Origin: Brachionus manjavacas
Lineage: Eukaryota > Rotifera > Eurotatoria > Ploima > Brachionidae
Reading direction: 5' to 3'
NCBI GenBank assembly: GCA_019054805.1
Contig: JAHQIY010000001.1
Location: 3,672,501 to 3,736,500, forward strand
DNA: 64,000 nucleotides
The position numbers and the translations under genes were made by a program. The notes under the pieces are model-generated. The model worked only from the letters and a program-made list of their open reading frames with translations. It ran no database searches and was not told the DNA's origin. Below, one piece after another: positions 130-7,371 of this stretch (its first letter is position 1; each line of letters starts with the position of its first letter).

Positions 130-934
130 CAAATTCTTCTTCTGAATCATGAATCAACATCTTCAAAAACTCGATATCTATTCATTCATCTGTATCTATT
201 ACTCACAAAAGCTGTGAAATCTGAAGTGCCAAATGCTTTAATTTATTGGGATATAAGTCCATGGCTTGGTGTAGAAGGTATGAGAACTTGGTGGGGTTAT
301 TTCGAAATAGCTCATACAGATTTTATTCATACTAGTGGTGGGAGTGTAATTATTTTTTCGTTTTATGTTTCATTTTTTTCAAAATTTTTATTTTTAAGAC
401 CTGATTTACCCCAAATTAGACTAAATGAACTTGAATGGCGTTTTATGAGCAATTTAACTAAAAAATATATAATATCCAATTGTGGTTACGGGGTTGGTGG
501 AGCAAATATTAGTAATTTAATTTAATAAAGTATTTTAATATTTAATTTGAAATTTCAACAAAAACCTTAAGACGACTATGATTCATGGGTCAGTGGTAAT
601 AATTTGAACAGTAGAATCAGTGATGCGCTGATTGATGTTACTATTGCAAGTGGCAATAGAATTATTCCAAGATTTGATTTTAATTGCAAAGAATACTTTA
701 AAAAAAAAACATCATTTCAATTTATAAATTATTCATCTTTAAAATTTTTTTCGTTGTTTTAATATTAATCTAATCAGAGTTGTTTTTAAGTCACAAGTAT
801 TAAGTTAACTATAAGTGCCTAACATTTTTTTCTCTATTTTAATTTTTCTTTCTTATGATAGTTCATCCAACTCACTATATTCGAGTTTCTTTCGAACCAT
901 ATATCGAAGAAGACTGCAAAGCTAGAACTTTTTA
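130..934 (+). CDS. Unassigned coding exons, gene partial at left edge
   Basis: I do not recognise this gene. Three stretches look coding. The first (about 211-503) reads through WDISPWLGVEGMRTWWGYF and EIAHTDFIHTSGG. The second (from 571, after an AAG acceptor) contains DDYDSWVSGNNLNSR and SGNRIIPRFDFNCKEYF. The third (from about 863, after TTATGATAG) reads HPTHYIRVSFEPYIEEDCK and ends at a TAA. The first open stretch runs over a T-rich segment (about 341-393) that looks like a short intron, but removing it as a GT-AG intron breaks the frame, so the model is unresolved and the gene could be decayed. The aromatic-rich, Gly-rich composition would suit a secreted carbohydrate-active enzyme, and a cellulose-binding gene lies 3.7 kb downstream, but this link is speculation. 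The 5' end lies outside the window. Confidence 0.3.
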
Positions 935-4677: not shown

Positions 4678-7371
4678 ATGATAATTTTGAAGATTTTATT
4701 TTTTCATTTAATGCTAAATTTAGCTAAAAATCAAGCCATTTTAATCGATGTAAAATCTGAAAAAAGAAACGTGATCTTATCAAATACCATATTCAAAAAC
4801 TTAACGACTGAAATTGCTTCAAATTTCCCTAAAATACCTGTTTGGGAACCTTGCGGAGGTGAAGGTCACTTCGGGGGTACTGAATGTGATGAATCTTCAA
4901 TCTGTATAGAAAAAAATGACGGGTTTTCACGTTGTGAACCAAAAGCAAATGATCCAAGCAGGATAAATGAATGGGAACAGTGTGGAGGTATAACATATAA
5001 CGGAAATATTCTATGTCAAGAATGGCTTACATGTGTAAAGATTCACAACTGGTATTCTCAATGCGAATTTATTGATCGAAACAACATAAAACCAGAATCA
5101 GATAAAATACCCGTTTGGGAAAGCTGTGGTGGAGTAGGGCACAGTGGTGAAACAGAATGTGACGATTCTTCAAATTGTATAGAAAAAAATGAATGGTATT
5201 TTCGTTGTGAACCAAAACAAAATGACCCAAATAGAGTAAATGAATGGGATCAATGTAATGGAATTAATTATTTGGGAAATTCCATATGTCAAGCTTGGTT
5301 AACTTGTGTGAAAAAAAATAACTGGTTTTGGCAATGTGAAAAATATTTAATTCGGACAATCTCTAAAATCCCGGTTAATTCCACAATGTTTACTACAATG
5401 AAAACTTCGAGTGATTTTACGCTTCCGACAACAACGGTAAATTCAACTTGGATATCACCAAATGCTTCATCGCACTATCCTCACGAGACCACACTGAATA
5501 GCACAATTAATTCTACCTTTCCTTCAACAATAGGATTCACTAACGGAACCACTACGGAAACAACAGAAAATACCTTCAGTGTAACAACAGTTTCTTCCAC
5601 TCCATTAACCACTTCTGACCTTCCAGTGACTTCCACAATTTTTACTACAATGAACACTTCTAGTGATTATACGCTTCCGACAGCAACGGTAAATTCAACT
5701 TGGATATCACCAAATGCTTCATCGCACTATCCTCACGAGACCACACTGAATAGCACAATTAATTCTACCTTTCCTTCAACAATAGGATTCACTAACGGAA
5801 CCACTACGGAAACAACAGAAAATACCTTCAGTGTAACAACAGTTTCTTCCACTCCATTAACCACTTCTGACCTTCCAGTGACTTCCACAATTTTTACTAC
5901 AATGAACACTTCTAGTGATTATACGCTTCCGACAGCAACGGTAAATTCAACTTGGATATCACCAAATGCTTCATCGCACTATCCTCACGAGACCACACTG
6001 AATAGCACAATTAATTCTACCTTTCCTTCAACAATAGGATTCACTAACGGAACCACTACGGAAACAACAGAAAATACCTTCAGTGTAACAACAGTTTCTT
6101 CCACTCCATTAACCACTTCTGACCTTCCAGTGACTTCCACAATTTTTACTACAATGAAAACTTCGAGTGATTTTACGCTTCCGACAACAACGGTAAATTC
6201 AACTTGGATATCACCAAATGCTTCATCGCACTATCCTCACGAGACCACACTGAATAGCACAATTAATTCTACCTTTCCTTCAACAATAGGATTCACTAAC
6301 GGAACCACTACGGAAACTACAGAAAATACCTTCAGTGTAACAACAGTTTCTTCCACTCCATTTACCACTTCTGACCTTCCAGTGACTTCCACAATTTTTA
6401 CTACAATGAAAACTTCGAGTGATTTTACGCTTCCGACAACAACGGTAAATTCAACTTGGATATCACCAAATGCTTCATCGCACTATCCTCACGAGACCAC
6501 ACTGAATAGCACAATTAATTCTACCTTTCCTTCAACAATAGGATTCACTAACGGAACCACTACGGAAACAACAGAAAATACCTTCAGTGTAACAACAGTT
6601 TCTTCCACTCCATTAACCACTTCTGACCTTCCAGTGACTTCCACAATTTTTACTACAATGAAAACTTCGAGTGATTTTACGCTTCCGACAACAACGGTAA
6701 ATTCAACTTGGATATCACCAAATGCTTCATCGCACTATCCTCACGAGACCACACTGAATAGCACAATTAATTCTACCTTTCCTTCAACAATAGGATTCAC
6801 TAACGGAACCACTACGGAAACAACAGAAAATACCTTCAGTGTAACAACAGTTTCTTCCACTCCATTAACCACTTCTGACCTTCCAGTGACTTCCACAATT
6901 TTTACTACAATGAAAACTTCGAGTGATTTTACGCTTCCGACAACAACGGTAAATTCAACTTGGATATCACCAAATGCTTCATCGCACTATCCTCACGAGA
7001 CCACACTGAATAGCACAATTAATTCTACCTTTCCTTCAACAATAGGATTCACTAACGGAACCACTACGGAAACAACAGAAAATACCTTCAGTGTAACAAC
7101 AGTTTCTTCCACTCCATTAACCACTTCTGACCTTCCAGTGACTTCCACAATTTTTACTACAATGCACACTTCAATTGAATCTACAGTTGACAGTTCTTTT
7201 CCATCTTCTTTCGATTCTTCCTCATTGACAACCATGGAAACATCTTTTTTTTATTTTACATCTAATTCTATAATTACTTCCTCCCTTGTCACTAATAGTC
7301 CCTTTGAGGATTTTTCGGTTAAGGTCTTGCAGCATTTTCAATGGCTTATTGATGCTTCTAATTCAGTATAA
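4678..7371 (+). CDS. Secreted protein with four CBM1 modules and mucin-like repeats
   Basis: Single-exon gene, 897 residues. Residues 1-20 are hydrophobic (MIILKILFFHLMLNLAKNQA) and fit a signal peptide. Four CBM1 (fungal-type cellulose-binding) modules follow at about 56-87, 99-130, 147-178 and 190-221. In module 1 the cysteines are at 59, 70, 76 and 86: spacing 11, 6, 10, exactly the CBM1 pattern, with the family blocks CGG, G.TEC and N..YSQC. A Trp begins each module and one or two aromatics precede the last Cys, the positions that form the flat cellulose-binding face. Modules 1 and 3 resemble each other, as do 2 and 4, so a two-module unit was duplicated. From residue 234 come seven 84-residue Ser/Thr-rich repeats with many N-X-S/T sequons, then a unique tail of about 75 residues. 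No catalytic domain, transmembrane segment or GPI signal is visible. Expected role: an extracellular, heavily glycosylated cellulose- or chitin-binding protein. CBM1 is typical of fungi and rare in animals, so horizontal origin is plausible. Confidence 0.9.
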   Translation: MIILKILFFHLMLNLAKNQAILIDVKSEKRNVILSNTIFKNLTTEIASNFPKIPVWEPCGGEGHFGGTECDESSICIEKNDGFSRCEPKANDPSRINEWEQCGGITYNGNILCQEWLTCVKIHNWYSQCEFIDRNNIKPESDKIPVWESCGGVGHSGETECDDSSNCIEKNEWYFRCEPKQNDPNRVNEWDQCNGINYLGNSICQAWLTCVKKNNWFWQCEKYLIRTISKIPVNSTMFTTMKTSSDFTLPTTTVNSTWISPNASSHYPHETTLNSTINSTFPSTIGFTNGTTTETTENTFSVTTVSSTPLTTSDLPVTSTIFTTMNTSSDYTLPTATVNSTWISPNASSHYPHETTLNSTINSTFPSTIGFTNGTTTETTENTFSVTTVSSTPLTTSDLPVTSTIFTTMNTSSDYTLPTATVNSTWISPNASSHYPHETTLNSTINSTFPSTIGFTNGTTTETTENTFSVTTVSSTPLTTSDLPVTSTIFTTMKTSSDFTLPTTTVNSTWISPNASSHYPHETTLNSTINSTFPSTIGFTNGTTTETTENTFSVTTVSSTPFTTSDLPVTSTIFTTMKTSSDFTLPTTTVNSTWISPNASSHYPHETTLNSTINSTFPSTIGFTNGTTTETTENTFSVTTVSSTPLTTSDLPVTSTIFTTMKTSSDFTLPTTTVNSTWISPNASSHYPHETTLNSTINSTFPSTIGFTNGTTTETTENTFSVTTVSSTPLTTSDLPVTSTIFTTMKTSSDFTLPTTTVNSTWISPNASSHYPHETTLNSTINSTFPSTIGFTNGTTTETTENTFSVTTVSSTPLTTSDLPVTSTIFTTMHTSIESTVDSSFPSSFDSSSLTTMETSFFYFTSNSIITSSLVTNSPFEDFSVKVLQHFQWLIDASNSV
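5377..7140 (+). repeat. Seven in-frame tandem copies of a 252-bp coding unit
   Basis: Copies start at 5377, 5629, 5881, 6133, 6385, 6637 and 6889; a partial eighth begins at 7141. The copies are almost identical. Copies 2 and 3 share a variant encoding NTSSDYTLPTAT, while 1, 4, 5, 6 and 7 encode KTSSDFTLPTTT. Copy 4 has Phe instead of Leu in STPLTT. Each unit carries at least five N-glycosylation sequons. Near-identity with shared variant blocks points to recent unequal crossing-over or gene conversion. Confidence 0.98.

Follow-up and report, generated by a model that had tools for sequence, protein, structure and literature searches.

CBM1, a standard component of fungal cellulases, is encoded here in a rotifer, by an apparently intronless gene with a mucin-like tail. 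The locus lies in a 64-kb stretch of DNA, here called the window (G000:C1:3672501-3736500; positions without a contig name refer to it), from a genome whose 61 contigs add up to 114,169,980 bases. The coordinates, strand and frame proposed in an earlier note on this DNA were correct. There is one ORF at 4678..7371 (+), a single-exon CDS of 897 aa plus stop which, read from the genomic sequence, needs no intron.

The gene, its modules and its repeat tail

The assignment to CBM1 had been staked on a search with the Pfam CBM_1 model (PF00734), and the search bore it out: the predicted protein was matched in four stretches, with E 1.1e-24 and a score of 86.4 bits, the cut-off being 20.6. All four modules lie on the + strand and are recognized both by Pfam and by their cysteine pattern. 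Modules 1 (residues 54-86; 4837..4935) and 3 (residues 145-177; 5110..5208) are of type A, and modules 2 (residues 97-129; 4966..5064) and 4 (residues 188-220; 5239..5337) of type B. Of the window gene, only modules 2, 3 and 4 were also listed in a six-frame search of the genome with PF00734 at E <= 0.001, and module 1, being absent from that list, is the weakest of the four. The exact 11-6-10 cysteine spacing claimed earlier is present in 4/4 modules, and all 16 module cysteines are kept. The pattern C-x10-C-x5-C-x9-C occurs four times across the six frames of the window, always within this ORF; when residues 50-225 were shuffled with their composition kept, 130 of 20,000 shuffles had one match and none had two or more. 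The claim of a preserved aromatic face stood for modules 2, 3 and 4, which have all three aromatics, but not for module 1, which has two of three. There, judged by position relative to the cysteines, a Gly stands where T. reesei Cel7A has Tyr31.

Identity is 70% between modules 1 and 3 and 67% between modules 2 and 4, but 30-33% between the two types, so that the four modules look like the product of a doubled A-B pair. Ka/Ks between the two pairs is 0.18, a value that is only rough because Ks, at 1.5, is near saturation; the modules look constrained, with few amino-acid changes relative to silent ones. Matches in the PDB were to chains named exoglucanase, endoglucanase, xylanase, cellobiose dehydrogenase and glucuronoyl methylesterase, which we take to be fungal enzymes, and the module 4 pair matched 4qi7 (cellobiose dehydrogenase) with E 2.1e-5. 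In agreement with the earlier statement that the protein has no catalytic domain, no further Pfam family was over its cut-off (cIII and GhoS were listed, both under their own cut-offs) and no NCBIfam match was found. The Pfam scan of the protein gave no match to CBM_14 either.

The modules are preceded by a signal-peptide-like start of about 20 residues (4678..4737, +), predicted from the hydropathy of residues 2-13 (mean Kyte-Doolittle 2.4). They are followed by a tail of 672 aa, 47% Ser+Thr. Most of it consists of a 252-bp (84-aa) Ser/Thr/Asn-rich tandem repeat (5379..7172, +), present in 7.1 copies with a 99% match between them, that resembles a mucin-like stalk. The protein contains 39 N-glycosylation sequons, counted as predicted sites, of which 37 are in the repeats. 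The seven full copies vary at 7 of 252 sites (5 amino-acid-changing, 2 silent); copies 2-3 are identical, as are copies 5-7. Since the copies are nearly identical while the CBM1 pairs are far apart at silent sites, the sequence points to a recent expansion or homogenisation of the repeat. No match to the tail was found in the rest of the genome, MMR-like ORFs included. The C-terminus (7173..7371, +) is unique, Ser/Thr-rich and without a membrane-like segment, the best 19-residue hydropathy mean in the last ~250 residues being 0.68, which is not strongly hydrophobic. With its signal-like start, its Ser/Thr/Asn-rich repeats and their sequons, the protein does look secreted and glycosylated, as had been suggested.

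The neighbours of the gene are animal genes: there is a myosin upstream and an innexin downstream, and other neighbours, some of them insulin-receptor-like, have receptor L domains and a furin-like region, a tyrosine kinase domain or immunoglobulin domains. Together with the MMR-B-like ORFs of the genome, they confirm the animal, rotifer host that had been proposed. The gene sits on C1, a contig of 12.1 Mb, and its GC is near that of its neighbours. A fragment at 190..369 (+), 4.3 kb upstream and on the same strand, is related (49% over 48 aa) to an unnamed domain that follows CBM1 in a gene of contig C8, and is probably a relic. Near the window end there is a MULE-type transposase domain (PF10551; 62635-63126).

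CBM1 elsewhere in the genome and the origin of the module

The reading of the gene as a lone acquisition does not hold. The six-frame search (E <= 0.001) gave 22 matches to PF00734, grouped into nine loci, all on contigs > 3 Mb, and several of them adjoin GH5-like or LPMO domains. Four CBM_1 matches were found in an inverted arrangement with GH5-like frames on C5 near 1.45 Mb, where the one frame scanned matched PF00150 over cut-off (E 1.6e-6). The GH5-like CBM1 genes of this region (C5:1443000-1462800; L010, L011) are repeated, with neighbouring frames, in inverted orientation. At C1:3758135 there are a CBM1, a Thr-rich linker and a GH5-like part under cut-off (18.2 vs 23.5 bits), PF00150 being over cut-off in one of the two GH5-like genes scanned. 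LPMO_10 was over cut-off in both genes scanned, one with three CBM1 after it (C5:5486759; E 5.3e-16) and the other with two (C9:3720608; E 4.5e-18). The gene at C5:166846 (L014:4067-5288) has five CBM1 in near-identical tandem units, with apparently one exon for each module; they are preceded by a Cys-rich start without a Pfam match, and no catalytic match was found.

At C8:4425639 (L009:5123-6221) a CBM1 lies beside a domain of > 210 aa that is left unnamed, as there was no Pfam match at E 0.1 and no NCBIfam match at E 1, and the best PDB match had E 0.52. A paralogue 70% identical to this domain is present at C12:943914-944555, with neither a CBM_1 match nor the cysteine pattern nearby on its own strand. 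GH6 had been guessed from sequence for the C8 domain and for the window fragment, and the name was dropped on the same results. The search with PF01341 (GH6) had no match in the genome, a null that shows little because the 14 control genomes had none either.

The closest relatives of the window gene are at C6:1247229 (L016:4834-5993; 55% identity) and C12:76092 (L017:4797-5966; 54%). They encode CBM1 modules, a stalk, EGF repeats and a hydrophobic membrane-like segment, and share the A-B module pair with the window gene. The two copies are 98.2% identical over the coding stretch and both are broken, the C6 copy by a frameshift within its second CBM1, caused by a gap of 10 bases, and the C12 copy by a stop ahead of the EGF part. 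Reverse-transcriptase-like frames were observed nearby.

Horizontal entry of CBM1 into the rotifer line is plausible, and if the module came from outside, a cellulase probably came with it. In bdelloids, an Adineta vaga gene named GH45, flagged as HGT, carries PF00734 (PMC12220480), and an ancillary CBM1 or CBM10 is reported for GH45 of Adineta ricciae (PMC6509783). No description of CBM1 in Brachionus or another monogonont was found among the matches listed in the open-access literature, and a rotifer lectin paper (PMC8878817) gave no hit for cellulose, CBM or mucin. A tree of 21 rows was built from 17 modules of Brachionus and 4 of fungi. It joins the A modules of C12 and the window gene with support 82/88, but support is < 80% for 12 of its 18 inner branches, among them those next to the fungal rows; its 33 columns are too few for a resolved tree. 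Relatives of the four-module region were sought in GTDB contigs (9 pattern stretches, 0 confirmed) and in IMG/VR (6 pattern stretches, 0 confirmed) with short peptide seeds of the window protein, which find close relatives and would miss distant ones. None was found in phages by tblastn at E 0.1.

Known systems of similar design

The module itself is that of the fungal cellulases (T. reesei Cel7A, 1cbh; cellobiose dehydrogenase, 4qi7), with the same cysteine spacing and aromatics. Animal mucin-like chitin-binding proteins with CBM14 have Cys-rich polysaccharide-binding modules and Ser/Thr-rich stretches, and in both they are like the window protein, but CBM14 is another family and has no match in it. 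Several CBM1-type modules are also present in a protein of the red alga Porphyra purpurea, which, unlike the rotifer, has a wall of its own. Liu et al. 1996 reportedly described it as a gametophyte cell-wall protein with four polysaccharide-binding domains, and the likeness is one of description only. To our knowledge it has no mucin-like repeat tail. A later text gives three CBM1 for it (PMC3160888). In fungi, a short linker connects CBM1 with an enzyme (PMC3160888), whereas the window protein has no enzyme and a long tail. CBD1, CBD4 and CBEL of the oomycete Phytophthora, again compared by description only, resemble the window protein in lacking a catalytic domain and have one or two CBM1 (PMC3160888; PMC3532174), but they belong to wall-bearing stramenopiles, and CBEL has PAN/Apple domains. 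The bdelloid GH45 with CBM1 (in PMC6509783, CBM1 or CBM10) likewise places the module in a rotifer, and is there flagged as HGT (PMC12220480); it is, however, an enzyme, and its host is not a monogonont.

The mate recognition genes MMR-A and MMR-B of Brachionus manjavacas (PMC2746195) are secreted and intronless, as the window gene is predicted to be, and resemble it in their near-identical in-frame repeats of similar length. They differ in having no CBM1 and a helical, non-mucin repeat, with no sequence match to the tail. The 26-base MMR-B primer published for this species matches exactly at C7:5027191, in an ORF that begins with a signal-like stretch and contains three repeats; two more sites on C7 have one mismatch. 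Two ORFs of C7 (L047:1414-2301 and L048:1447-2823), with three and five near-identical 87-codon repeats, fit MMR-B3 and MMR-B5 as described (PMC2746195). With the MMR-B reverse primer, the three-repeat ORF shows one mismatch, and the five-repeat ORF has no site even when four are allowed; a MAN primer of B. manjavacas could not be placed in the genome with one mismatch or none. These results would count against exact identity with the published strain or, for the MAN primer, for an intron. The genome is therefore assigned to the B. plicatilis complex, and within it probably to B. manjavacas.

Possible functions and alternative explanations

We favour, at about an even chance, a secreted, non-enzymatic, mucin-like polysaccharide-binding protein, derived from an acquired CBM1, that coats or tethers cellulose-walled algal food. 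From the known behaviour of CBM1, the linked modules with their flat aromatic faces would bind a crystalline beta-1,4-glucan surface together, by avidity, and the glycosylated repeat tail, as in known mucins, would stand out as a hydrated stalk or brush. There being no enzyme, the effect would be one of holding or coating, presumably of algal food in the mouth or gut mucus, beside the CBM1-bearing cellulases of the rotifer. The module would have come from outside and then been joined to animal-type parts, to EGF repeats and a membrane segment in the relatives and to mucin-like repeats in the window gene. Cellulose is favoured over chitin because CBM1 adjoins GH5-like domains in this genome and because at least 140 matches to CBM_14, which we take to be the usual animal chitin-binding family, provide a separate chitin toolkit. 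The ligand cannot be read off the partner enzymes, since LPMO_10 includes chitin-active enzymes as well as cellulose-active ones. The missing aromatic of module 1 and the breaks in both closest relatives count against this explanation, and the breaks would also fit a decaying subfamily.

That the modules bind the rotifer's own chitin, in egg shell or jaws, with the glycosylated tail as a protective coat, is unlikely in our view. Chitin is present in the egg shells of rotifers (PMC3701536), which makes a coat on the egg possible, and certain CBM1s from outside the fungi prefer chitin to cellulose (PMC5962083), which counts against a cellulose ligand; this role could, however, be filled by CBM_14, and CBM1 is here also found on GH5-like genes. 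Nothing in the analysis points to a coat on the lorica, which had been suggested as well. We think it quite improbable that the near-identical repeats carry glycans for recognising mates, prey or microbes, with CBM1 as the anchor to a polysaccharide surface. The mate recognition genes, for which there are matching ORFs in the genome, lack introns too, encode a signal peptide and contain nearly identical repeats that are 87 to 92 codons long (PMC2746195), and the repeats of the window gene hold 37 sequons. Against this, the tail has no sequence match elsewhere in the genome, the MMR genes included, and homogenised repeats are common in mucins too.

The state of the relatives bears on two further readings. 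As both copies are broken, module 1 has lost one aromatic and upstream there is a piece of a further gene linked to CBM1, the gene could be a decaying relic without function, but an open frame of 897 codons, 16 conserved cysteines and the low Ka/Ks make this very unlikely. A defence lectin that binds the walls of attacking fungi or oomycetes is a highly doubtful proposal: CBM1 can bind wall polysaccharides and the closest relative, with its EGF repeats and membrane-like segment, is built in the fashion of a receptor, but nothing here links the gene to infection and the receptor-like copies are the broken ones. Contamination of the assembly by a fungus or other microbe is scarcely credible. The assembly does have bacterial-looking contigs, C40 (L052) and C43 (L053), where stretches have GC of ~45% and dense ORFs against ~26% GC elsewhere; the gene, however, lies between myosin and innexin on a 12.1-Mb contig with GC like that of its neighbours, and none of the nine CBM_1 loci is on a contig of 3 Mb or less.

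Beyond the coating or tethering of algal food, we advance tentatively a broader possibility. From the acquired CBM1, Brachionus may have built a family of its own glycoproteins for surface and mucus, some membrane-bound (CBM1, EGF, membrane segment) and some secreted (CBM1 with homogenised, glycan-bearing mucin repeats). They would serve to sense cells with cellulose walls or to hold them. Alternatively, they would present glycans on a surface of polysaccharide, in the manner of this rotifer's mate recognition protein, which is also built of repeats. As far as our searches show, the non-catalytic CBM1 architecture is new in an animal, in its mucin-like secreted, five-CBM1 and receptor-like forms, the last represented by two broken copies only. 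Ligand, site and role can be tested, because Brachionus is easy to culture and RNAi is reported in it (PMC2746195). An animal with CBM1 at nine loci, partly beside enzyme domains and partly on mucin-like or EGF/membrane proteins, offers a case in which one can test how a probably acquired binding module joined animal extracellular architecture.
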